Origin: an uncultured Lysobacterales bacterium
GTDB lineage: Bacteria > Pseudomonadota > Gammaproteobacteria > Xanthomonadales > SZUA-36
Reading direction: 5' to 3'
Assembly: GCA_937927755.1 (NCBI GenBank)
Contig: CALBDB010000037.1
Coordinates: 1-51,411 of the forward strand
Length of the DNA stretch: 51,411 nt
Positions 2,442 to 17,561 of the stretch are shown here, piece by piece. Made by a program: the position numbers and the translations under genes. The first letter of the stretch is position 1; the number at the start of each line of letters is the position of its first letter. The notes under the pieces are model-generated. The model was not told the DNA's origin and searched no databases. It worked only from the letters and a program-made list of their open reading frames with translations.

Positions 2442-5482
<3,041 letters not shown>

Positions 5483-5493
5483 TCAAACCGGAC

Positions 5494-5534
5494 AAAGCCG
5501 GATATTGACCATGTCGATATCCGGCTTTATTTTT
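5494..5534 (+). terminator. Intrinsic terminator after gdhA
   Basis: AAAGCCGGATAT (5494-5505) pairs perfectly with 5517-5528 around an 11-base loop and is followed by ATTTTT. It closes the maeA-gdhA unit. It also argues against a start at 5533 for the next gene. Confidence 0.9.
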
Positions 5535-5571: not shown

Positions 5572-8532
5572 ATGAGCCCCGTTTTTAACATCAAGGATTT
5601 TGAAAAGGAATCGGCGCACTTTGATTCGCTGATGCCCTTCAAGGTCAAAGATATACTCCTCGTTTCCAGCCTGTACGATATATACAATTTGCGCGAAGAC
5701 GGGCAACTTGCCAACCTTGTGATGTCCGAATACGCCGAGTTGAGGCTTTCCAGCGCACCGACCATCAAGCGGGTAGATTCCGGCCTGAGCGCCCTTGAGG
5801 CTTTAAAACTCAAGAAGTTTGACCTGATTATTGTTTTCCGCTCACCCAGCGGTATAGACCCGGTTGAATTCAGTCGCCGCGCCAAGGAGTTGCGCCCCGA
5901 TATACCCGTCGTCCTGCTCGCACTTCACCATCGCGAACTGGAATTGATGAGAGAGCGCGAAGACCAGGCCTACGACAACGTATTTTTCTGGAGTGGTGAA
6001 GCCAAGATTCTGCTGACCATCATCAAGTTCATCGAGGACAGGATAAACGTCGAAGCCGATACCGAAGCGATCGGTGTGCGCGTGATTATCCTGGTTGAGA
6101 ATTCTGTCCGGTTCTATTCGTCCTTTTTGCCCCTGATCTATACCGAGACGATGCAGCAGACGTCAAAACTGCTTTCCGAAAGCATAAACTCCGCCAACCG
6201 CTTGCTGAGGATGCGCGCAAGACCAAAGATACTGCTGGCTGAAAATTTTGAAGAAGCTCTCACCCTTTTCAACAAGTACAAAAAATACCTGTTGGGCGTG
6301 ATATCGGATATTCAGTTTTCGAAAGATGGAAAGATCAACTCAAGCGCCGGGATACAACTGGCCAAGCTGATCAAAAAAGAGATCAATGACTTACCGGTTT
6401 TACTGCAATCTTCGAATGACGCCAATGCGCCAAAGGCTGCCAAATGTGATGCCGCGTTTCTGAACAAGAATTCACCGACGCTGTTGAATGAACTAAGTAC
6501 TTTCATCAGCCAGAATTTCGGATTTGGCGATTTTATTTTCAGGCTTCCGGATGGTACCGAACTCGCCCGCGCCAGCAACTTCAGGGAAATGATCAAATGC
6601 GCGGCAGTGGTTGATTCCAGGTCACTGGTGTATCACGCGGAAAGAAACCATTTCTCAAACTGGTTAATGGCCCGGACCGAATTTGACCTGGCGGCCCGTT
6701 TGCGTCCCAGGAAAGCCAGCGAATTCAAAGAACCCGAAGACCTGCGCAACTACCTGGTCAAAACCCTCGAGGATTTCCGGCACGAGAGACAGGTGGGTGT
6801 TATTACCGATTTCAAGCGGGACCAATACGATGGCCGGGCCGAATTTTTGAGGATCGGCGAAGGATCACTGGGCGGCAAGGGCCGCGGACTCGCTTTCGTC
6901 AATAACCTGATCAACCGCTTCCCCGTCTACAAGACCTTCCCGGGAGCCCGTATTTCGGTACCCCGCTCCGCGGTGATATGCACGGGCGTGTTTGACGAAT
7001 TCATGGAGAGCAACGACCTGACCGGTCTGGCACTGGGTGATATCAGCGACGAGGAAATGATCGCGGCATTTACCAGCGCCTCGATCCCGCGCGAGTTGGA
7101 AGAGGACTTACGTGCCTACCTGGCTGTCACTACCCATCCAATAGCGGTGCGATCCTCTTCGCTGCTTGAAGATTCGCATTACCAACCCTTTGCCGGAATC
7201 TTTGACACCCATTTTCTACCCAACAACTATCCATCACTGAAAGGCCGACTAAACCGCCTGCTGTTGGCCGTGAAATTGATCTACGCATCGGTTTACTTTA
7301 AAAACTCAAAGAATTACATCGATGCGACCGGCAACCGCGCCGAAGAAGAAAAAATGGCGGTCATCCTGCAGGAAATAGTGGGCAAGAACAGGAATGGCAG
7401 CTTCTACCCGGTACTTTCCGGCATGGCCAGATCCTACAACTTTTACTCGGTCGGACGTATCAAGCCGGAAGAAGGCATTGCCTACACCGCACTCGGGCTG
7501 GGCAAAACCATCATGGAGGGTGAAAATTGCCTGTTCTTCTCCCCCGCCAATCCACAGATCCTGCCGCAGTTCTCCTCGCCCCAGGATTATCTCAGAAATA
7601 CCCAGCGCGAGTTTTTTGCAGTAGACATGGAACATTCCTCGGTGTTTCCGGAACGCGGCGGCGATGTCGGTCTGATCAAACTGAATATGTCCAAGGCTGA
7701 AGAGCACGGTGTGCTCAAGTATGTCGGCTCCACCTACTCTGCCGACAATGACAGAATTTACCCCGGGGTTGGCCGCAAAGGCGCCCGGGTCATCACTTTT
7801 GACCCGATACTCAAATCAAAAATATTTCCACTGGACCAGATCCTGGAGTACCTGCTGAAGCTTGGCAGCAGTGCGATGAACGTGCCCGTCGAAGTGGAGT
7901 TTGCGGCGGAGGTCAGCTCCGACCCGCGTAAACCGCACGAATTCCGCTTTCTGCAGATCAGGCCGATGCTGGTTGATTCTGCGTTTGAAGATGTGTCCCT
8001 GCACGATGCAGGCGACCAGCAGGTTTTCTGTCAATCCGACCAAGCGCTCAGTAATGGCCGGATCGAAGATGTCAGGGACATCGTTTTTGTCCGGCCAGAT
8101 AATTTCAAGCGCGCCAACATGGTCCACATGGCGGAACAGGTTGGCAAGTACAACCGGATGTTCAAGGAGAAGAAGCGGCCCTACATGCTGGTGGGGCCGG
8201 GTCGTTGGGGAACATCTGACCGCTGGCTTGGCATTCCAACGAAGTGGGACCAGATCTCATCGGCACGGGTAATCGTCGAGGCCAATTACGGTGATTTCGT
8301 GGTTGAGCCGTCATTCGGAACACATTTCTTTCAAAACCTGATCACGTTCCAGATCGGTTACCTGACCATCAATGATGGCATAGAAAACAATACCATCGAC
8401 TGGGACTGGCTAAACGCCATCGAGCCCGTCTCGGAAACCGAGTACGTCAGGCACGTACGACTGGAACAGCCGATGACCATCCTGATTGACGGCCGCAACG
8501 GCAAGGCCGTCATATATAAGCCGGAAAACTGA
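5572..8532 (+). CDS. Two-receiver + PPDK_N (ATP-grasp) protein, PEP-synthase-like but lacking the His and PEP domains
   Basis: This large cytoplasmic protein has 986 residues. Residues about 25-160 look like a degenerate receiver: the phospho-acceptor position in FDLIIVFRS is not Asp. Residues about 217-315 look like a second receiver that keeps Asp246 (LGVISDIQF) and Lys299. From about 430 it is a PEP synthase/PPDK N-terminal ATP-binding domain, with GSLGGKGRGLAF (431-442) and AVRSSSLLED (525-534). The C-terminus carries MLVGPGRWGTSDRWLG. The swivelling phosphohistidine domain and the PEP/pyruvate barrel of true PEP synthase are absent, so it should not make PEP alone. The Met at 5572 is chosen because the preceding terminator overlaps the earlier start. 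Its stop overlaps the start of the next gene by one base. Confidence 0.8.
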   Translation: MSPVFNIKDFEKESAHFDSLMPFKVKDILLVSSLYDIYNLREDGQLANLVMSEYAELRLSSAPTIKRVDSGLSALEALKLKKFDLIIVFRSPSGIDPVEFSRRAKELRPDIPVVLLALHHRELELMREREDQAYDNVFFWSGEAKILLTIIKFIEDRINVEADTEAIGVRVIILVENSVRFYSSFLPLIYTETMQQTSKLLSESINSANRLLRMRARPKILLAENFEEALTLFNKYKKYLLGVISDIQFSKDGKINSSAGIQLAKLIKKEINDLPVLLQSSNDANAPKAAKCDAAFLNKNSPTLLNELSTFISQNFGFGDFIFRLPDGTELARASNFREMIKCAAVVDSRSLVYHAERNHFSNWLMARTEFDLAARLRPRKASEFKEPEDLRNYLVKTLEDFRHERQVGVITDFKRDQYDGRAEFLRIGEGSLGGKGRGLAFVNNLINRFPVYKTFPGARISVPRSAVICTGVFDEFMESNDLTGLALGDISDEEMIAAFTSASIPRELEEDLRAYLAVTTHPIAVRSSSLLEDSHYQPFAGIFDTHFLPNNYPSLKGRLNRLLLAVKLIYASVYFKNSKNYIDATGNRAEEEKMAVILQEIVGKNRNGSFYPVLSGMARSYNFYSVGRIKPEEGIAYTALGLGKTIMEGENCLFFSPANPQILPQFSSPQDYLRNTQREFFAVDMEHSSVFPERGGDVGLIKLNMSKAEEHGVLKYVGSTYSADNDRIYPGVGRKGARVITFDPILKSKIFPLDQILEYLLKLGSSAMNVPVEVEFAAEVSSDPRKPHEFRFLQIRPMLVDSAFEDVSLHDAGDQQVFCQSDQALSNGRIEDVRDIVFVRPDNFKRANMVHMAEQVGKYNRMFKEKKRPYMLVGPGRWGTSDRWLGIPTKWDQISSARVIVEANYGDFVVEPSFGTHFFQNLITFQIGYLTINDGIENNTIDWDWLNAIEPVSETEYVRHVRLEQPMTILIDGRNGKAVIYKPEN

Positions 8533-10598
8533 TGATCAACCAATCTCTCATCGACCCCAGCAGCATCGTGGTCGTTGGCGGCTCCGGTGATATTGAAAAA
8601 CCCGGCGGCAAAATCCTGAAGAACCTGCTCGACGGCTGTTTCGGCGGTGACCTGTACGTCGTCAACCCAAAAAATGAATCCGTGCAGGGCATCGCCTGTC
8701 TGCACTCGGTGGCCGAGTTGGAGACGGCTGAACTGGCAATTATCTGCGTGCCTGCCAGGTACTGCCCGGACATTGTTGGTACGCTGGCAGGCAAAAAGAA
8801 AACACGTGCTTTTATTATTCTGTCCGCGGGCTTCGGTGAAGAGGGGGAACAGGGCAGGCGGTGGGAGCAAGAGATCGTTGAGACTGTCAATTCGGTCAAT
8901 GCCTGCCTTCTCGGGCCGAATTGCATCGGCATCCTGAACAGCAACTACACCGGCATTTTCACATCTCCTGTTCCACAGCTCGACCCAATGGGCTGTGACC
9001 TGGTTTCAAGCTCCGGGGCCACCGCCGTTTTCCTGTTGGAAGCGGGCATCCTGCTCGGCCTGAAATTCTCCGGTGTGTATTCCGTGGGAAACAGCGCCCA
9101 AACGGGAATCGAGGAAGTTCTCGAATACATGGATCAGACTTACGATCCGGAAAGGGACTCCAGCATCAAGCTGCTCTACCTGGAATCAATTGCAAACCCC
9201 GGAAAACTGCTCAAGCATGCATCCTCCCTGGTACGAAAAGGAGCTCGAATCGCAGCCATCAAGGCCGGTAACACGGAAGCGGGTGAACGGGCCGCCGCAT
9301 CCCATACCGGCGCGCTGGCCAATCCCGATATGGCCGTTCGCGCACTGTTCAAAAAGGCCGGGATCGTAAGTTGTGATAGCCGGGAAGAGTTGCTGAGCGT
9401 GGCATCCGCCTTCAATTACAAGCCGCTGATAGGTAAAAACATAGCGGTAATTACCCACGCGGGTGGTCCGGCGGTGATGCTGACGGATGCCCTTTCCAAT
9501 GGCGGTCTGAATGTCCCGCTGATAGATGGCCCGAATGCCGAAGAACTGCTTTCCATGCTGAATCCTGGCTCTTCGGTCAGCAACCCCATCGACTTCCTGG
9601 CCACCGGGACAGCTAACCAACTCGGAACCATCATTGATTTTTGCGACAGGAAATTCGACCAGGTCGACGCGATGGTAGTCATTTTTGGAAGCCCGGGACT
9701 ATTCGATGTCGCCGACGTATACGAGGTGCTTAGCGAGAAGCTGGAAACCTGCCGAAAGCCAATCTATCCCGTGCTGCCTTCCGTTATCAATGCACGTGAA
9801 GGGATACAGGCATTCCTGGCGAAAGGACACATCAACTTCCCTGACGAAGTCGCCCTGGGAAGTACATTGGCCGTCATCTGCAAGACAGCTGCCCCACCTG
9901 AGGCGAGCGAGACTGACTACCGCGTTGACCAGGCTCGCATCCGGAATATTATCGATGCATCTACTGACGGATTCTTATCACCTGCGGAGGTAGCCGGCTT
10001 GCTGGATGCAGCCGGTATTCCACGCGCCAGCGAAACCACGATCACTACACCGGCGGACATCGAAAACATGAGCCCGCCAGGCTTCCCCATCGCAATGAAA
10101 GTAGTAGGTCCGGTGCATAAAACGGATGTTGGCGGCGTAATGCTGAACATCAACTCCATGCAGGAATTGAAATCCGGTTTTGAGCGTTTGATGCAAATCG
10201 ATAATGCAGAGGCTGTGTTGGTTCAACCGATGATTGACGGGGTAGAACTTTTTGCAGGTGTGAAACGCGAGTCCAATTTTGGCCACCTGATCGTATGTGG
10301 ATTGGGGGGGATATTTATCGAAATACTGAATGATTTCTCCTCCGGTCTTGCACCGCTGACCAAAGCTGAGTCCTTGGATATGATCAGGAGCTTGCAGGGC
10401 TATAAGGTTTTCCAGGGTGTTCGCGGGAGAGAAGGTGTAAACGAGGAATTGTTTAGCGAGATTATTCAGCGGCTGTCGTTGCTGGTAGAGATTGCTCCCG
10501 AGATAGTGGAGATGGATATGAATCCGTTGATGGGGGAAGCGAATAGCGTTGTTGCTGTGGATACCCGGGTCCGGGTGTTACGGCAGTCTGAAAATTAG
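8532..10598 (+). CDS. Fused ADP-forming acyl-CoA (acetyl-CoA) synthetase
   Basis: This single 688-residue chain carries the alpha and beta parts of an NDP-forming acyl-CoA synthetase. Such enzymes convert acyl-CoA, ADP and phosphate to acid, CoA and ATP. Residues 1-140 are the CoA-binding Rossmann domain (IVVVGGSGDIEKPG). The ligase part carries the phosphohistidine motif AAASHTGALA with His258. From about 465 the ATP-grasp part has GFPIAMKVVGPVHKTDVGGV. Translation is coupled to the preceding gene by a TGATG overlap. With the pyruvate oxidoreductase encoded nearby, acetyl-CoA to acetate with ATP formation is the likely direction under anoxia. Protein acyl transfer or another acyl-CoA cannot be excluded. 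Confidence 0.85.
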   Translation: MINQSLIDPSSIVVVGGSGDIEKPGGKILKNLLDGCFGGDLYVVNPKNESVQGIACLHSVAELETAELAIICVPARYCPDIVGTLAGKKKTRAFIILSAGFGEEGEQGRRWEQEIVETVNSVNACLLGPNCIGILNSNYTGIFTSPVPQLDPMGCDLVSSSGATAVFLLEAGILLGLKFSGVYSVGNSAQTGIEEVLEYMDQTYDPERDSSIKLLYLESIANPGKLLKHASSLVRKGARIAAIKAGNTEAGERAAASHTGALANPDMAVRALFKKAGIVSCDSREELLSVASAFNYKPLIGKNIAVITHAGGPAVMLTDALSNGGLNVPLIDGPNAEELLSMLNPGSSVSNPIDFLATGTANQLGTIIDFCDRKFDQVDAMVVIFGSPGLFDVADVYEVLSEKLETCRKPIYPVLPSVINAREGIQAFLAKGHINFPDEVALGSTLAVICKTAAPPEASETDYRVDQARIRNIIDASTDGFLSPAEVAGLLDAAGIPRASETTITTPADIENMSPPGFPIAMKVVGPVHKTDVGGVMLNINSMQELKSGFERLMQIDNAEAVLVQPMIDGVELFAGVKRESNFGHLIVCGLGGIFIEILNDFSSGLAPLTKAESLDMIRSLQGYKVFQGVRGREGVNEELFSEIIQRLSLLVEIAPEIVEMDMNPLMGEANSVVAVDTRVRVLRQSEN

Positions 10599-10779: not shown

Positions 10780-11082
10780 TTAGTCCGCGTCGACTACCAA
10801 CACTTCGCGAAGACTGAATGCCTGTGGCTTAGCGCCAAACCAGGCCTTGACCTCCGACCAAGCCCCCTTAAACAACTCACTCTGACGATAAGCTTCCAGG
10901 TCATCCTCACCATCCCACTTGCTATAGGTATAAAAGACATTGGACTGCCCGGCATCCCGGTGAAGTTCAAGGTGCCGCACGCCGGGAAAAGCGCGTATCA
11001 GATGTTTGACGGTATCAAACTGAGCGAGGAAATCATCCACGTGCTCAGGGCGGAATTCCATTCTTACGATTCGCGTAATCAT
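10780..11082 (-). CDS. Antibiotic-biosynthesis-monooxygenase-fold (ABM) small protein
   Basis: This 100-residue protein has the ferredoxin-like ABM fold pattern: ITRIVRMEFRPEHVDDFLAQF, a central HLELHRDAGQSNVFYTYSKW, then EAYRQSELFKGAWSEVKAWF. Family members include quinol monooxygenases and haem-degrading enzymes, and many have no known role. It lies 53 bases after porB on the same strand and may be the last gene of that operon. No Shine-Dalgarno sequence is obvious. A link to quinones or thiol/oxygen damage is only a guess. Confidence 0.75.
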   Translation of the reverse strand: MITRIVRMEFRPEHVDDFLAQFDTVKHLIRAFPGVRHLELHRDAGQSNVFYTYSKWDGEDDLEAYRQSELFKGAWSEVKAWFGAKPQAFSLREVLVVDAD

Positions 11083-11135
11083 GGCGTCAGTAGCTTAAAG
11101 CCCTTTTCGGGGAAATCAATGCCACTGAAGCTGTT

Positions 11136-12044
11136 TTACCTCGTCGAAGACGGGGCCTTGGCCGGGAACACGGTCGCCATTGCTTCCAGGTAACGCCACT
11201 GCGCATCGATATGTGCCTGGATATCTTCGGAATTGTTCCACAGCTTTCTGAAACGGTTTTGCTGTTCGAGGTAAGTATCAACCGGTGTGCTGTCGGGGCG
11301 CTGGTTGATGCGGTAACGCACACCGTCAAATATCTCGTAGAGCGGAAACAGGCCGCTGCGCACGGCAAGCTCGACCAGTTCGGTGCTCTGGTCCGGCTCT
11401 GATTTCCAGCCGGTGGGGCACGGCGACAGCATCAACAGGAAACGGAAACCCTTCACGGACAGTGCATACCTGACCTTCTTCAGGAAATCCTTGCGGTTAC
11501 CGATCGATAAAGTAGCGGCATAGGGAATACGGTGCGCGGCCATGATGGCCATGATGTCCTTTTTGCCTTCGGTTTTTCCGCCGGACGTGGTACTGGTGAC
11601 TGCACCAATTTGCGTGGCGCCGCTGCGCTGACCGCCGGTGTTGCCGTAAATCTCGTTGTCGTAGCAGATGTAGATGATATCTTCGTTGCGCTCGGCTGCC
11701 GCCGACAGGGTTGCGAGACCAATGTCATACGTGCCGCCGTCACCGGCCCAGCAGATAACCGGGTTTTCGTATTCGGTCATATTGACCACTGTCGATATAC
11801 CCGTGGCAACCGCCGGTGAACTGGCAAAGGTGGTCGCTGCTGTCGGCATACCATATCCGCTGGTGGGGAACGCCCCCGCCGTGACAATGCCGCAACAGGA
11901 CGGGATTACAAGCACCGGCTCAAGTTCGCCAAGCGCTTCATCCAGCCATTGCAGGCCGACCGACATTCCGCAGCCGGCGCAATTTGTATTGCCCGGACGC
12001 AGCAGGTGTTCCCGATAGGGTTTGGAGGGGGTTACCGTAGTCAT
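11136..12044 (-). CDS. porB: 2-oxoacid:acceptor oxidoreductase beta subunit (TPP-binding, PorB-like)
   Basis: This is the thiamine-diphosphate subunit of a pyruvate/2-oxoacid oxidoreductase, which decarboxylates a 2-oxoacid with CoA to acyl-CoA. It has 302 residues. The Fe-S ligands CAGCG near the N-terminus and CCGI are visible. The TPP motif starts at WAGDGGTYDIGLATL and continues to CYDNEIYGNTGGQRSG. The start at 12044 is fixed by an ATGA overlap with porA and by GGAAGGA nine bases upstream; the upstream Met at 12062 is less likely. The order and tight coupling with porA and the gamma/flavin/delta fusion define one enzyme. Substrate (pyruvate or an aromatic 2-oxoacid) is not settled. Confidence 0.88.
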   Translation of the reverse strand: MTTVTPSKPYREHLLRPGNTNCAGCGMSVGLQWLDEALGELEPVLVIPSCCGIVTAGAFPTSGYGMPTAATTFASSPAVATGISTVVNMTEYENPVICWAGDGGTYDIGLATLSAAAERNEDIIYICYDNEIYGNTGGQRSGATQIGAVTSTTSGGKTEGKKDIMAIMAAHRIPYAATLSIGNRKDFLKKVRYALSVKGFRFLLMLSPCPTGWKSEPDQSTELVELAVRSGLFPLYEIFDGVRYRINQRPDSTPVDTYLEQQNRFRKLWNNSEDIQAHIDAQWRYLEAMATVFPAKAPSSTR

Positions 12045-13213
12045 ACTGATGTGTCCTTCCATTCCGGGGTTGAAGCTGACTCACGCCGGTTCAGGTCGTC
12101 GATAATCGCATTGACATTCTCCGGGGTGACATCACCGCCACCCAGGCCGACCAGGTAATCCTGCAACAGCACATCGTTGCGCCCGATCAGTGTCGCTGCG
12201 ATTTCCTGCCAGAAAATGCCACCCGAGCCCGGTGAGTGGTTACGGTCCATCACGCCAACCCGCTTTGCGTTGCCTATGGCCTTCAGCAATTCCTCACGCG
12301 GGAATGGCCTGAACATCTTCAGACGTATCATGCCGATTTTCTCGCCCCTGGCCCGTCGCTCGTTGATCACGTTGTGCAGTGTGCGGGCCATGGTGTTGCA
12401 GGCGACCAGGATGGTTTCTGCATCTTCGATTTCAAAAGTTTCCAGTGCCCCGGCAGGGCGACGGCCAAAAATGCCTTCAAACTCGTTACGGGCTTCTTCC
12501 AGTACCGAAATCGCGTTTTCCATCGACTGTTGTATTTCGAAGCGGTGATGTTCGGTCTCATTTGGCATGGTCATACCACCAACGGTCGTGGGATGGGCAT
12601 GTTTCAGGCCGTGGGGAATAAGACAGTTTGGAAGGAATTCATCAACCTGCTCCTGCGTGGGCAGGTCGGCCACCATTTGCGTATGCGAGGTGACAAAACC
12701 ATCCAATGCCACGATCACGGGCAACATCACGCGGTGATCCTCGGCGACACGGAATGCCATCAGCGTCGTGTCCAGTAAATCCTGGTGACTGTCACAGTAA
12801 AACTGTAGCCAGGCAGCGTCACGCATCATCAGGCTGTCGCCCTGGTCCACCCATATGTTCCAGGGCGGCCCGAGGGTCCGGTTAACTGCCATCATCACGA
12901 TAGGCAGGCGGTAATAGCCGGCCGAGAAAATGTTTTCTGTCATGTAAGCCAGCCCATTCGAGGAACTGGCGGTAAATGCGCGGGCCCCGGCGAGGGATGC
13001 ACCTATGCAAACACCCATCGCGCTGTGTTCCGACTCGACCAGTACAACCCGGCCCCTGCTGAACGAAAAATCTGAAAGATACTCGATGATCTCTGTTTGC
13101 GGCGTTATCGGGTAGGCCCCCGCGCAGCAACCACGTGCATCGCGGTTCGCTTCACCTGCGAGAGCCAATGCGTAACCGGCAACATGGTTTCCGGTTGCAA
13201 GCGTTCTGGTCAT
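12041..13213 (-). CDS. porA: 2-oxoacid:acceptor oxidoreductase alpha subunit (PorA-like)
   Basis: This 390-residue alpha subunit begins with GNHVAGYALALAG and contains the family signatures YPITPQTEIIEYL, ESEHSAMGVCIGASLAGAR and TASSSNGLAYMTE. A Rossmann-like domain follows, with 'ETILVACNTMARTLHNV' and KMFRPFPREELL. It forms the pyrimidine-binding half of the TPP site with PorB, whose start codon overlaps its stop. It begins 17 bases after the fused gamma/flavin/delta gene. The set resembles the PadEFGHI phenylglyoxylate:NAD oxidoreductase of Azoarcus as well as pyruvate oxidoreductases. Confidence 0.88.
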   Translation of the reverse strand: MTRTLATGNHVAGYALALAGEANRDARGCCAGAYPITPQTEIIEYLSDFSFSRGRVVLVESEHSAMGVCIGASLAGARAFTASSSNGLAYMTENIFSAGYYRLPIVMMAVNRTLGPPWNIWVDQGDSLMMRDAAWLQFYCDSHQDLLDTTLMAFRVAEDHRVMLPVIVALDGFVTSHTQMVADLPTQEQVDEFLPNCLIPHGLKHAHPTTVGGMTMPNETEHHRFEIQQSMENAISVLEEARNEFEGIFGRRPAGALETFEIEDAETILVACNTMARTLHNVINERRARGEKIGMIRLKMFRPFPREELLKAIGNAKRVGVMDRNHSPGSGGIFWQEIAATLIGRNDVLLQDYLVGLGGGDVTPENVNAIIDDLNRRESASTPEWKDTSV

Positions 13214-13230
13214 TAATCTTTACTCCCTGT

Positions 13231-15453
13231 TTACAGGCCTGTCATGTAAATGGCCCCGCGCGGGCAGGCGGTCATGCACACTCCGCAACCCTTGCAGTAC
13301 TCCAGGTCGAAGACATATCCGTCTTCATCGTCGCTCCGCTGCAGAATACCTTCCGGACAATATTCCAGGCAGCGGTCACACTGGTTGCATACGCCGCAAC
13401 TGAGACAGCGCAGCGCCTCGCTGACGGCGCCGGCGCCATTGGGGCCGGCCTGGAAGCCCAGGTGCACTTCATCAAAACAACGCCGGCGTCCTTCCGCGCT
13501 GAGCGTGTTAACCTTTTCTCGTGCCTGGTGCGGAAAGCGGTGAAACTTAATCATCTCGGGGCCTGCCACGGTCTCAGGCAGCACCGGGAACAGGTCTTCG
13601 CCGCTCAGGGTGCGATGAATATGCCTCGCAGCCCTGACACCGCAGCCTATGGCCGCTGAGACAGTTCCCTCGTTGGTTGCAAAATCGCCACCCAGGAACA
13701 CCGGTGCGCCGCTCAGGCCGAGCAATGCTTCACCTTCCTTGATCTCTGCGCCTTCCGGGAGGATAGAAATATCGTGAGACTGCCCAAGTGCCAGGATGAC
13801 CAGGTCACAGGGCAAATCAAAAAGGGCTTCCGGGCTGGTATCAGCAATCGGCCTGGGCCTTCCGCTATCATCGGGTGGTCCCAGGACCATACCCTGGCAG
13901 GTCAGTTTGGGGCCATCACCTGAATCTGACAAACGGACCGGGGAGACAAGTTCATCGAGGATGATGCCTTCTTCCAGCGCCTGTTCGATTTCTTCGTGTA
14001 TAGCAGGCATTTCACTACGGGTCCGCCGATACACGACACGTACTTCATCGGCACCAATACGCAGGGCGGAACGGGCCGCATCCATTGCGGTGTTACCACC
14101 ACCGATGACTACCACGCGTTTGCCGTCCAGCCGTTCATTGCCCTGGCGAACACTTTCAAGGAAGTTCAGACCCTGTACCGGTGTCAGCAAACCCTTGCCG
14201 CCGAGGTCCAGATCACTGACATTCTGCAGCCCGGTACCAACAAATACTGCCTGGTAATCCTGGCTCAGACGCAGCATGTCTTCGCGTTCTAACTGGCTAC
14301 CTGTATGAACGGTAATGCCATGGCCGAGTATGTAGTCAATTTCCTCGTCCAGCACATCACGCGGCAAACGGTACGCCGGTATGCCGGTACGTAATACACC
14401 GCCCAGTTCATCACCAGCTTCGTACATCGTGACCGGGTATCCCAGGCGCGCAAGCTGGTATGCGGTTGTCAGTCCGGCGGGGCCGGAACCAACCACTGCA
14501 ATTGCTTCATCCCGGAAAGATTGTACCGGCTCCGGGCGTTTGCCAAGTTCGGCCGCAGACCGTTCAATTTCCCTGACATTCACCGAAGAGTCAAAATCCG
14601 CCCGGTTGCAGGTTTCCATACACGGCGCCGGACAAACACGGCCACATACGGCAGGCAGCGGAGATGTTTCAAGCAATATACCCAGGGCACGGTCAAAATC
14701 TTTATTGCCAACCGCATCCACAAACCCCCGCACATCATTGCCGGCGGGACAAACGTGGTTACAGGGTGGGGTCAGGTGACGTCTTTCCGGTTTTTCCGTG
14801 GCCCAGGTTCCGGTCTTGATCTTTGGCATACCGCCGAGGTCGTCATCGAACAGATGGGCAATGTGGTCTGCATCGTCGGCCTTCACCGGTTGGTGGATTT
14901 CGCCGGGCACGGTAAAGCTTTGTACTTTTTTGAATGCTTCACGTGCACAGGTCTTATTCGACCCGGTAAAATTCAAATGATCCAGCGCTGCCAGCATATC
15001 TGACAGGGACAGATTCAGCGCCCTGGCAACTGCACCCGCCATGGTGGTGTTGACGATTGGAACCGTCCGCGTACCAAGCCCATGGGCAACCGCAATACTG
15101 GTCGCATCAACCCTGGCAATATCACGTCCGGAGAAATGCTCCTGGCAATCGGTCTTGTCTTCACCCGTGTTGACGATGATAACGCCGCCGGGCTTCATAT
15201 TGGCATCCAGACCGGGCACGATCAGGGTGCGGTCCAGCACAACTATGTGATCAGGGTGCTTGATCTGGTTATGGTTAGTGATTTCTTCATCATCAACGCG
15301 GACATAAGCCTGGAGTGGCGCACCGGAGCGTTCCGCGGCATACACGCCAAATGCCTGCACGTACTTGCCTTTCAGAAAATAGGCCGAGGCGATAATCTTG
15401 GCCAGCGTAACGCCGCCCTGCCCTCCACGTCCGCAAATTGTGATTTCCATCAT
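13231..15453 (-). CDS. Fused 2-oxoacid oxidoreductase gamma + GltD-like FAD/NAD(P) + ferredoxin (delta) protein
   Basis: One 740-residue chain joins three subunits. Residues 1-185 are the gamma domain (ICGRGGQGGVTLAKI). Residues about 228-620 are a GltD-type flavin reductase with N-terminal Cys ligands 231, 235, 270, 274 and 278, the FAD motif VVGSGPAGLTTA, the NAD(P) motif VVIGGGNTAMDAA and a second FAD motif FLGGDFATNEGTVSAA. Residues 683-731 carry two ferredoxin clusters (LSCGVCNQCDRCLEYCP and CKGCGVCMTACP). In the Azoarcus phenylglyoxylate enzyme these parts are separate (PadE, PadH, PadF). The predicted role is passing electrons from the TPP centre to NAD(P), so no free ferredoxin would be needed. 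GGAG lies 8 bases before the start. Confidence 0.88.
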   Translation of the reverse strand: MMEITICGRGGQGGVTLAKIIASAYFLKGKYVQAFGVYAAERSGAPLQAYVRVDDEEITNHNQIKHPDHIVVLDRTLIVPGLDANMKPGGVIIVNTGEDKTDCQEHFSGRDIARVDATSIAVAHGLGTRTVPIVNTTMAGAVARALNLSLSDMLAALDHLNFTGSNKTCAREAFKKVQSFTVPGEIHQPVKADDADHIAHLFDDDLGGMPKIKTGTWATEKPERRHLTPPCNHVCPAGNDVRGFVDAVGNKDFDRALGILLETSPLPAVCGRVCPAPCMETCNRADFDSSVNVREIERSAAELGKRPEPVQSFRDEAIAVVGSGPAGLTTAYQLARLGYPVTMYEAGDELGGVLRTGIPAYRLPRDVLDEEIDYILGHGITVHTGSQLEREDMLRLSQDYQAVFVGTGLQNVSDLDLGGKGLLTPVQGLNFLESVRQGNERLDGKRVVVIGGGNTAMDAARSALRIGADEVRVVYRRTRSEMPAIHEEIEQALEEGIILDELVSPVRLSDSGDGPKLTCQGMVLGPPDDSGRPRPIADTSPEALFDLPCDLVILALGQSHDISILPEGAEIKEGEALLGLSGAPVFLGGDFATNEGTVSAAIGCGVRAARHIHRTLSGEDLFPVLPETVAGPEMIKFHRFPHQAREKVNTLSAEGRRRCFDEVHLGFQAGPNGAGAVSEALRCLSCGVCNQCDRCLEYCPEGILQRSDDEDGYVFDLEYCKGCGVCMTACPRGAIYMTGL

Positions 15454-15566
15454 TGCGTCAGCTCCTTACTTTTCTGGGCGTTCCACTGGGTGAGCCCAGG
15501 TTTCGTTCGAAATCGAGGATCCGGGTAGGTCTGATGTCAACTTACGCCTCTTCAAACGAGCCGTAA

Positions 15567-15580
15567 ATGACTATAATCAA
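15567..15580 (-). promoter_or_regulatory. Near-consensus FNR-type box upstream of the oxidoreductase operon
   Basis: On the minus strand the sequence is TTGATTATAGTCAT, one base off TTGAY-N4-RTCAA. Its centre (15573.5) lies 120 bases before the start of the gamma/flavin/delta gene. A start site 41.5 bases downstream would need a -10 at TAAGTT (15544-15539), which is weak. A palindrome, CCGGACGTCCGG, also lies at 15611-15622. Confidence 0.4.
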
Positions 15581-15634
15581 GTGCCCTGCATTTAGTTTTA
15601 AAGACCGTATCCGGACGTCCGGCCGGCTTTTGGA

Positions 15635-17509
15635 CTAGCGAATTTCATCGCCCGGCAAAATACTGAATGACAGGTGGTAAATACCTGATTCCAGTGTGCT
15701 TTCTATCGGGTTTGGCGCACACTTGTGAAAGATGTGCAGCATCCTCGCATTATCCTGGAGCACGTCGGCAGTGAACTTTGCAATACCGCGTTTGCGGGCC
15801 ACTTTGAGCAGTTGGTTAAACATGGCCATGCCCAAGCCCAGGTCCTGCCAGTCATCCCTGACGATGAAGGCCACCTCGGCAGCGTTTGACGCCTTTGTAA
15901 TCGAGTAACGGCCGATGGCAACAATCATCTCGTGCTCGTCTTCCCGCACCACACTGGCCAGGGCCAGTTCGTTCACGTAGTCAATATTGACGAACTTTCT
16001 GAGCTTATGATGCGGCATGGATTTCATTTTCGTGAAGAAGCGGTGGTACAGCGTATTTTCAGAGCAGCCGTAGAACAGGTCGCGCGTCATATCTTCATCT
16101 GTCGGCAGGATCGGGCGGGTATGAACGTCTTTACCATCCGATGTTTTGAACCTTTTCTCAAACGATTTGCGATTCAAATCACCGACACCGTAAACAGCAA
16201 CCTGGTCGCTGTAGACCATCTTCCGGTTGCGGGCCTCTTCCATCAGCCTGTCCCTGTGGTCCGGGTGTGCGATATGTATCAGGGCCATGGCACGTTCGCG
16301 AATGGTTTTTCCGTGCAAATCAGCAATACCGTATTCGGTCACCACGTAATGGACATCGCCCCGGCTCGTCACAACGCCGGCACCCTCTGTCAGCGTTGGA
16401 GCTATGCGCGAAATTTTTCCACCTGCTGCAGTGGACGGCAGGGCGATGATCGGCCTGCCCTCATGAGAGCGTGATGCGCCGCGGATAAAATCGACCTGCC
16501 CACCAATACCGCTGTAAAAGTAAGAACCGAGGGAATCCGCACATACCTGGCCGGTCAGATCGACTTGCAGGGCTGAGTTGATGGCCACCACGCGGTCGTT
16601 CTGTGCTATCCGGAACGGATCATTGGTAAATTCCGAGGGGTGAAATTCACACATCGGGTTATTGTCGATAAAGTCGTAAAGCCGTCGCGTGCCAATAACA
16701 AAACTGGCCACGATCTTACCCTTGTGAATATTCTTTCGTGAGCCGTTGATGACACCCTTCTCCACGAGTTCGATTACACCATCGGAGAACATTTCAGTGT
16801 GAATGCCAAGATCTTTCTTGTCACCGAGACATGAAAGAACCGCATCTGGAATTGTGCCAATGCCAAGCTGCAGCGTGGAGCCATCCTGGATCAAATCGGC
16901 AATGTGCTGCCCAATGCGTTGTGCAACCTCGTCCATCTCCCCTGCCGGCGCTTCCAGAATGGACTCATCACTGGGCACCAATGCATGGATACGGCTGACA
17001 TGAATGAAACAGTCACCCAGTGTGCGCGGCATATTGGGATTAACCTCGGCGACAATGTAACGGGCGCTTTCCGCACCTGCCTTGGTCACATCGACACTGA
17101 CCCCGTAGCTGCAATACCCGTGCTCATCCGGCGGCGAAACCTGGATCAGCGCAACGTCTATCGGCAACTTTCCACGGCGGAAAAGCCGCGGCACCTCGGA
17201 AAGGAAAACAGGGGTAAAATCAGCGCGCCCTTCGGCAACCGCACCGCGGACATTGGGCCCAATAAACAGCGCATTGTGGCGGAAGCCGTCTTTCAGGCGC
17301 GGGTCGGTGTAGGGGGCGGTGCCGAGGGTCAGGATATGGGTAATTTGCGTGTCGGCCAGCTCAGTTCCACGCTCAGCCAGGGCACTGACCAGCAGCTGCG
17401 GTTCCGCCGCACCAGAACCAATGAAGACCCGCCGGCCACTCCTGACTTTCCGAACTGCTTTCTCCGCAGTAGTCACCTTGTCCTTGTAAATTTCTTTCCA
17501 GTCGCTCAT
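15635..17509 (-). CDS. Acetyl-CoA hydrolase/CoA-transferase fused to a C-terminal GNAT acetyltransferase domain
   Basis: This 624-residue protein has two parts. Residues 1 to about 430 are a family I-like acetyl-CoA hydrolase/transferase, with GSGAAEPQLLVSAL, LQLGIGTIPDAVLSCLG, GIHTEMFSDGVIELV and VVTEYGIADLHGKTIRERA. Residues from about 465 form a GNAT domain, with FIVRDDWQDLGLGMAMF as the acetyl-CoA loop. The first part would move CoA between acetate and another acid; the second could acetylate a protein or small molecule. The start at 17509 matches where the family begins, though its Shine-Dalgarno is weak; a GTG at 17545 lies inside a hairpin. It is upstream of the oxidoreductase genes on the same strand, 181 bases apart. 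Confidence 0.85.
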   Translation of the reverse strand: MSDWKEIYKDKVTTAEKAVRKVRSGRRVFIGSGAAEPQLLVSALAERGTELADTQITHILTLGTAPYTDPRLKDGFRHNALFIGPNVRGAVAEGRADFTPVFLSEVPRLFRRGKLPIDVALIQVSPPDEHGYCSYGVSVDVTKAGAESARYIVAEVNPNMPRTLGDCFIHVSRIHALVPSDESILEAPAGEMDEVAQRIGQHIADLIQDGSTLQLGIGTIPDAVLSCLGDKKDLGIHTEMFSDGVIELVEKGVINGSRKNIHKGKIVASFVIGTRRLYDFIDNNPMCEFHPSEFTNDPFRIAQNDRVVAINSALQVDLTGQVCADSLGSYFYSGIGGQVDFIRGASRSHEGRPIIALPSTAAGGKISRIAPTLTEGAGVVTSRGDVHYVVTEYGIADLHGKTIRERAMALIHIAHPDHRDRLMEEARNRKMVYSDQVAVYGVGDLNRKSFEKRFKTSDGKDVHTRPILPTDEDMTRDLFYGCSENTLYHRFFTKMKSMPHHKLRKFVNIDYVNELALASVVREDEHEMIVAIGRYSITKASNAAEVAFIVRDDWQDLGLGMAMFNQLLKVARKRGIAKFTADVLQDNARMLHIFHKCAPNPIESTLESGIYHLSFSILPGDEIR

Positions 17510-17533
17510 TGGGTATGCTCTTGATTCAATCAA

Positions 17534-17561
17534 TAAAAATAGCACCCGAATTGTGGGTGCT
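17534..17561 (-). terminator. Intrinsic terminator hairpin in the CoA-transferase leader
   Basis: Read on the minus strand, AGCACCC (17561-17555) pairs perfectly with GGGTGCT (17547-17541) around a 7-base loop, and ATTTTTATT follows. It sits 25-50 bases before the start codon and downstream of the predicted FNR promoter. No minus-strand gene lies upstream for it to terminate, so attenuation of the leader is the likeliest use. Confidence 0.6.

Follow-up and report, generated by a model that had tools for sequence, protein, structure and literature searches.

The stretch of DNA considered here (the window) is the 51,411-nt contig CALBDB010000037.1 of an uncultured Lysobacterales bacterium (GCA_937927755.1, positions 1 to 51,411, forward strand), and its subject is the gene for a protein of 986 residues, called here the PPDK_N protein after the dikinase-type ATP-grasp domain that it shares with pyruvate phosphate dikinase (PPDK) and phosphoenolpyruvate (PEP) synthase. 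This uncharacterized protein is encoded beside gdhA, the gene for glutamate dehydrogenase (GDH), in many distantly related bacteria, and it may switch GDH on or off. On balance, we favor the reading that it is a truncated PPDK-like dikinase, controlled by receiver domains, that regulates GDH. GDH joins carbon and nitrogen metabolism, and to our knowledge the post-translational control of this enzyme in bacteria is poorly understood. A widespread, co-inherited neighbor bearing an ATP-grasp domain and receivers is a concrete candidate for a GDH regulator, and one that is present in gut Bacteroidales (Parabacteroides, Phocaeicola) as well.

GDH is the conserved neighbor

Gene neighborhoods were scanned with one genome per species, and the counts that follow concern the best 80 of at least 572 relatives (41-71% identity), which are the closest ones and not a random sample. 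By record title they come from Zixibacteria, Ignavibacteria, Acidobacteria, Gemmatimonadales, Krumholzibacteriia, Bacteroidota, Desulfobacterales, Marinimicrobia, and others; because most are metagenome bins, these taxon labels may be wrong. A GDH gene lies within 700 bp of the PPDK_N gene in 47 of the 80, and in 45 of them it is of family I; where the flanks reach 1.2 kb or more on each side (57 loci), a GDH is this close in 36. The 45 family I loci hold 51 such GDH genes, 27 of them 5′ and 15 of them 3′ on the same strand, with the rest on the opposite strand (7 at the 3′ side and 2 at the 5′ side). When all neighboring open reading frames (ORFs) of the 80 were clustered with no family chosen beforehand, GDH came out on top with 47 loci, and the next family reached 9; KorAB-like genes (6 loci) and a GltD/NfnB-like gene (8 loci), named by eye from the starts of their sequences, were also seen. 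Of the 35 genomes where no family I GDH adjoins, 33 carry one elsewhere, which in G363 is split into two pieces. As a control, canonical His-domain genes were located in the 14 genomes common to both searches, and these were never near a family I gdhA, lying either on another contig, where closeness across the gap is not strictly excluded, or, in G090, about 305 kb away. Of three relatives from a plasmid collection, those of Parabacteroides and Phocaeicola have gdhA adjoining. A fusion with GDH at locus L042, suggested by an overlapping ORF, was rejected, the two frames being different. A literature search over titles and the openings of abstracts, with few subscription journals, found no known association of GDH with PPDK_N proteins besides one reference of 1996, taken up below, a result that does not establish absence from print.

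Co-inheritance with GDH

Within the window's own family and order (61 genomes), the full-length PPDK_N protein occurs in seven genomes, the window's included, and gdhA lies directly upstream in all seven, at 5 to about 300 bp; two further matches are to the receivers only. GDH subtype follows the PPDK_N protein, since identity to the window GDH is 84-100% in the seven carriers and at most 65% in relatives without the protein. In a GDH tree of 84 rows, the seven family GDHs fall within a set of 12 rows, all of them linked GDHs (support 97/91), the other five coming from Zixibacteria/FCB, Bacteroidota, and Delongbacteria records and from G138, on a long branch. The 15 GDHs of relatives without the PPDK_N protein lie elsewhere in the tree. 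The two genes have probably travelled together.

Two wider samples extend this. Across 299 genomes of the phylum, with at most two candidates per genome scored, only the window's genome and G138 match over the PPDK_N region, seven others being receiver-only. The G138 protein (locus L029) is a diverged form without the two receivers, 25% identical over residues 428-932, and in G468, the other of the two genomes that carry this form, it stands at the same spacing after gdhA (2/2); no other genome of the 115 in that sample matches the diverged form at E 1e-20. In place of the receivers, the L029 protein has an unassigned N-terminus, KaiC-like by eye, for which Pfam gave only a weak DUF7090 match. 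Among 119 Bacteroidia genomes drawn evenly (thresholds of E 1e-50 for the PPDK_N protein and E 1e-100 for GDH), the PPDK_N protein was found in 4; only those 4 have two GDH matches at threshold, and they alone have a GDH at least 81% identical to the Parabacteroides query. In three of these four, the PPDK_N gene has a GDH within 400 bp, that of G593 being of the 97% type. The four are not independent events, since they are probably close relatives.

A receiver-bearing protein, proposed to be a truncated dikinase

The domain order of the protein is receiver 1, receiver 2, helical segment, ATP-grasp domain, and a divergent C-terminal domain (Table 1). The AlphaFold2 model of the whole chain, made with 50 homologues, has a mean predicted local distance difference test score (pLDDT) of 86.1 and a predicted template-modeling score (pTM) of 0.75, and conserved residues were counted in an alignment of 50 homologous sequences. 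Pfam recognizes the PPDK_N domain (104.5 bits against a cut-off of 27, E 9e-30); receiver and DUF5752 matches fall below its cut-offs, and the receivers were located by structure comparison of the model. An earlier note on this DNA, made from the sequence alone, had described one degenerate and one intact-looking receiver, and this is borne out. Receiver 1 has no conserved phosphoacceptor Asp, and receiver 2 has E176, D246, and K299 each in 50/50 sequences, Ser or Thr at position 280 in 50/50, and D177 in 48/50, with Asn at that position in the window protein. In the ATP-grasp domain, K436, R527, E533, D534, E774, E776, Q795, and P798 are invariant; these are presumably catalytic residues, as read in part from the PEP synthase alignment and otherwise assumed. 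The profile of the domain matches 12 PEP synthases at Prob 96.8 but fails to match a set of five PPDKs (Prob 0.66). The note's statement that the PEP part is missing also holds: the PEP-binding barrel, PF02896, gave no match at E up to 1, and the chain ends after the C-terminal domain. PHROGs gave one weak match only (E 0.0048), PADLOC none, and a scan of viral contigs no relative of the protein.

The same note took the phosphohistidine part to be missing as well. By sequence profiles it is, in that residues 806-986 match no Pfam family, including the canonical phosphohistidine domain PF00391. By structure the claim becomes doubtful, swivel-type His domains ranking first at moderate Z scores, and we consider it likely, though not proven, that the C-terminal domain is a diverged phosphohistidine domain. 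Folded alone, it has a pLDDT of 90.7 and a pTM of 0.89. In the VIA structure comparison, which re-ranks Foldseek's own top 1000 chains only, the best match is PPDK 381-511 (Z 7.1, 119 residues, 3.6 Å), and further matches are rifampin phosphotransferase 755-867 (Z 6.8), Staphylococcus aureus pyruvate kinase 474-582 (Z 6.5), and enzyme I N-domains (Z 5.9 and 5.8). Sixteen of the top 17 rows are phospho-His-type domains, judged by names and ranges, and the remaining row is 2ioj, a DRTGG protein (Z 6.8); the 16 are not independent, since 11 are PPDK entries and 2 are rifampin phosphotransferase. The whole model aligns with PEP synthase 2ols (model 413-985 to chain 4-467, Z 26.4, 366 residues) and with PPDK 1dik (model 413-985 to chain 3-511, Z 19.1, 354 residues), where the ranges give the first and last aligned residues only and, as we assume from the position of the His domain in both enzymes, take that domain in. 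Moreover, the order strand, loop, [ST]H, helix, strand agrees with the canonical domains as read from their sequences. His918, in the motif P-S-x-G-[ST]-H-F-F-Q-N, is invariant (50/50, with S914 replaced by Thr in one) and is retained in the distant relative at L029, and GPGRWG and HFFQN are strongly conserved motifs of the domain.

A pointer to what matters in this architecture comes from locus L054, which has two pairs: in one a family I GDH precedes a PPDK_N protein, and in the other a 585-aa protein made up of PPDK_N and C-terminal domain alone comes after a family II GDH. This minimal form suggests that the ATP-grasp and C-terminal domains are the working core, the N-terminal modules serving as inputs.

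Proposed mechanism and alternatives

The analysis establishes the domain order, the invariant residues, a resemblance in fold, and the linkage and co-inheritance with GDH; that His918 is phosphorylated, that the protein binds GDH, that the receiver exerts control, and in which direction GDH would be affected are matters of inference. The ATP-grasp domain would bind ATP and phosphorylate His918 in the adjoining swivel-type C-terminal domain, with AMP as a product, as with other dikinases. A classical dikinase has a third domain, missing here, in which pyruvate then receives the phosphate; the swiveling domain would instead hand the phosphate on to the GDH of the neighboring gene, or act on it by a conformational signal, and thereby alter its activity, whether up or down. 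Receiver 2, phosphorylated on Asp246 by a partner, would gate the dikinase module. A bolder version, which we offer tentatively and regard as rather unlikely, is that of a dikinase-based signaling class controlling ammonia assimilation across many phyla, in which His918, charged by the ATP-grasp core, would pass phosphate to the protein's own receiver Asp246 and to GDH, with exchangeable inputs (receivers, PAS, other N-termini). If true, one polypeptide would merge a two-component relay with a metabolic dikinase.

A number of observations weigh against regulation of GDH by a dikinase of this kind. At the level of gene linkage, gdhA and the PPDK_N gene, 89 bp apart in the window, are split there by a terminator-like hairpin, the longest stem in the scan (the scanned region as a whole is not above chance, with 7 found and 7.4 expected). 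A GDH within 700 bp is lacking in 33 of the 80 best relatives, in some of which the contig runs out nearby. Among the 35 genomes with no family I GDH next door, two show none of this family at all: L042 has only a family II GDH, which is adjacent, and L071 shows none. The plasmid-collection relative from Prevotella, L031, has no GDH ORF within 8 kb, and in Bacteroides G354 and G355 gdhA and the PPDK_N gene are some 30 and 47 kb apart. As for co-inheritance, G334 holds a 90-aa fragment of a PPDK_N protein at a contig edge and only a 34% GDH, and G518 and G559 have a GDH of the 65% type next door, with the closer type at a distance of 3.6 and 2.5 kb. Nor is there a His specific to linked GDHs, as judged from 57 linked against 15 other GDHs. 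Sixteen positions differ between these groups, none of them His and none compelling as an acceptor; 8 "near" rows were placed in neither group, and four GDHs of Bacteroides genomes that have the PPDK_N protein elsewhere were dropped from the unlinked one. For the C-terminal domain, hhalign profile comparison with 27 canonical swivel domains (two of 29 loci having been dropped for lack of the motif) gave no match (Prob 0.35), a negative that is weak because the same method missed the PPDK_N domain against PPDK. Foldseek gave no significant match (best E 0.085), its top rows being chitinase-type and other folds, and a Z of 7 is not decisive and may reflect only a common arrangement.

Other explanations can be set beside the favored one. 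The protein could be a small-molecule dikinase acting on a metabolite of the glutamate/2-oxoglutarate node, its linkage to GDH reflecting a shared pathway and not direct regulation. Relatives with small-molecule substrates are described (rifampin phosphotransferase, PMC4844700; HpeHI, PMC12167813), and some loci hold the KorAB-like or GltD/NfnB-like genes mentioned above, but the chain holds no third large domain, and the receivers, together with a PAS domain in a paralogue, suggest regulation, so that we regard this as unlikely. Unlikelier still, in our estimate, is an ATP-binding, nontransferring subunit that acts on GDH allosterically or as its sensor of energy charge, with the C-terminal domain as a docking module. 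The conserved GDH linkage, the absence of a canonical His-domain sequence, and the conserved GPGRWG and HFFQN motifs would suit such a subunit, whereas His918, present in every aligned sequence beside an intact-looking ATP-grasp site, is more than ATP binding alone seems to need. We think it improbable that the protein is an activation or assembly factor required for the activity of the linked GDH. That notion takes its cue from the title of Baggio and Morrison 1996 (as cited in PMC4539542), which speaks of trans-acting gene(s) downstream of gdhA affecting GDH activity in Bacteroides thetaiotaomicron, and it agrees with G559 and G518, where a family I GDH is followed, about 93 and 318 bp past its 3′ end, by the PPDK_N gene. 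Against it stand the distances in Bacteroides G354 and G355 and the other ORFs that follow the GDHs, because of which the trans-acting gene may be another, and the 40 of 44 Bacteroidia genomes with a GDH match that have no PPDK_N protein at threshold. The segment at issue is reportedly about 3 kb long, close to the size of the PPDK_N gene, and we treat the identity of the two as a lead only.

The model of the earlier note, in which phosphate passes to the active-site histidine of the acyl-CoA synthetase encoded just downstream, is largely refuted as a general mechanism, and we give it next to no credence. The two genes are real and correctly placed, as ORFs of 986 and 688 aa with the TGA of the first (8530-8532) overlapping the ATG of the second by one base. 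This overlap and the recurrence of the gene order in two congeners (G306 and G307) are what speaks for transfer between the products. By family and PDB matches, the nearest being 8wzu, a 4-hydroxybutyrate-CoA ligase (E 4e-85), the second is a fused ADP-forming acyl-CoA synthetase, and it has SHTGAL (His258) and HKTDVGG (His529), which we take to be its phosphohistidine motifs. As a partner it fails, because it stands beside the PPDK_N gene in none of the 80 best relatives, within the flanks examined, and directly downstream in three of the seven family members (the window, G306, and G307) and not in the other four, and because it carries its own ATP-grasp domain and both His motifs. Moreover, GDH, the 2-oxoacid oxidoreductase found nearby, and the synthetase together can be read as what we take to be a pathway of amino-acid breakdown. 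Hence the coupling that the note proposed is local, and the count of co-occurrence that it suggested leads to gdhA, outside its interval, as the conserved neighbor. The underlying idea of an ATP-dependent, signal-responsive phosphotransfer fits the anatomy, with a partner other than pyruvate, and it gains in strength should the C-terminal domain prove to be a His domain; for the "another new partner" that the note had allowed for, gene linkage points to GDH.

The locus and related proteins

Table 1. Features of the window, with related loci in the last two rows
Feature	Position	Strand	Remarks
Malic enzyme	2442..4085	+	upstream of gdhA; family matches
gdhA, NADP-type family I GDH	4139..5482	+	NCBIfam NF006929, 780 bits
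Terminator-like hairpin	5494..5528	+	16 pairs and T run, between gdhA and PPDK_N gene
PPDK_N protein gene, 986 aa	5572..8532	+	receiver 1, receiver 2, helical segment, PPDK_N ATP-grasp, divergent C-terminal domain
Receiver 1, residues 25-162	5644..6057	+	degenerate; no conserved phosphoacceptor Asp
Receiver 2, residues 168-321	6073..6534	+	Asp246 codon 6307-6309
Helical segment, residues 325-430	6544..6861	+	DUF5752-like below Pfam cut-off; invariant His355
PPDK_N ATP-grasp domain, residues 432-804	6865..7983	+	Pfam PF01326
C-terminal domain, residues 806-986	7987..8529	+	proposed divergent phosphohistidine swivel domain; invariant His918, codon 8323-8325
ADP-forming acyl-CoA synthetase (fused), 688 aa	8532..10598	+	local neighbor, not conserved partner
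Diverged PPDK_N relative in G138	L029:6156-8732	+	start 7 bp after gdhA stop
L054: family II GDH, 585-aa protein, another PPDK_N ORF	10909-17228	-	the other PPDK_N ORF ends in a nucleotidyltransferase-like domain

The malic enzyme gene is found upstream of gdhA in the same three of the seven family members that have the synthetase. Farther along the window, on the minus strand, lies a 2-oxoacid:acceptor oxidoreductase (11136-15453), whose gamma part is fused to GltD-like and ferredoxin parts, adjoined by a CoA-transferase-like protein fused to a GNAT domain (15635-17545, minus strand). Malic enzyme, GDH, synthetase, oxidoreductase, and CoA-transferase-like gene may together form a cluster for the catabolism of amino acids and organic acids.

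At ten loci, mostly of Bacteroidota (L063, L083, L085, L088, L094, L098, L100, L102, L106, and L113), a longer PPDK_N paralogue of 1066-1271 aa lies at most 170 bp upstream of the one of about 990 aa, and in L094 the longer paralogue starts with a PAS domain. A separate protein supplying the His and PEP domains, which the earlier note had named as evidence against its idea, was not found via PF00391 in the window's own genome (97% complete; PF02896 alone was not searched). The three places matched, none of them a stand-alone protein of this kind, are a complete PPDK, a phosphotransferase system (PTS) fusion, and an enolase/PPDK_N frame. The PTS protein combines EIIA, HPr, and enzyme I in one 869-aa chain (contig C36, L122:3992-6601, plus strand). 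The third is a 1921-aa open frame (contig C71, L121:2-5767, plus strand) with Enolase_C, Enolase_N, PPDK_N, and PEP-utilizers matches, and in eight relatives PF00391 matches lie in open frames of 2037-2136 aa.

Comparison with known systems

With PPDK and PEP synthase the protein shares the PPDK_N domain, and its model aligns with theirs over the ATP-grasp and C-terminal domains; unlike them, it has no PEP-binding barrel that could be found, and its C-terminal domain is without detectable sequence similarity. Rifampin phosphotransferase (5hv1, 5fbu) ranks first among the structural matches of the whole model (Z 26.8), and its His domain is also among the matches of the C-terminal domain, as given above, but no rifampin-binding domain is recognized in the PPDK_N protein, which has receivers instead. 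In the split dikinases HpeHI, PpsAB, and CreHI, as described in PMC12167813, the modules sit on two polypeptides and are hence separable, whereas here a single chain carries both the ATP-grasp and the proposed His domain, with an oxidoreductase as the proposed partner. Receiver 2 has the set of acidic residues, Asp, Ser/Thr, and Lys of CheY-like response regulators; what lies behind it, unlike in those proteins, is a dikinase-like core and not a common output domain.

The closest precedent, by analogy, appears to be VadK (Rv1127c), described as a regulatory histidine kinase evolved from PPDK that consists of ATP-binding and His domains only, autophosphorylates, and interacts with enzymes of the methylcitrate cycle (PMC13400623). 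Both would be truncated dikinases, with an ATP-grasp and a (here proposed) His domain and without the PEP-binding domain, tied to the control of central metabolism. They differ in that VadK pairs an ATP-binding and kinase domain with the methylcitrate cycle, and the PPDK_N protein has GDH as its linked enzyme and two receivers before the core; moreover, its proposed His domain is invisible to PF00391. If the reading of the PPDK_N protein as a receiver-controlled regulator of GDH is true, truncated dikinases can evade annotation, since their His domain may be invisible to profiles, and the protein would join VadK as a second offshoot with a regulatory role, which would point to truncated dikinases as a general route to the control of metabolic enzymes.

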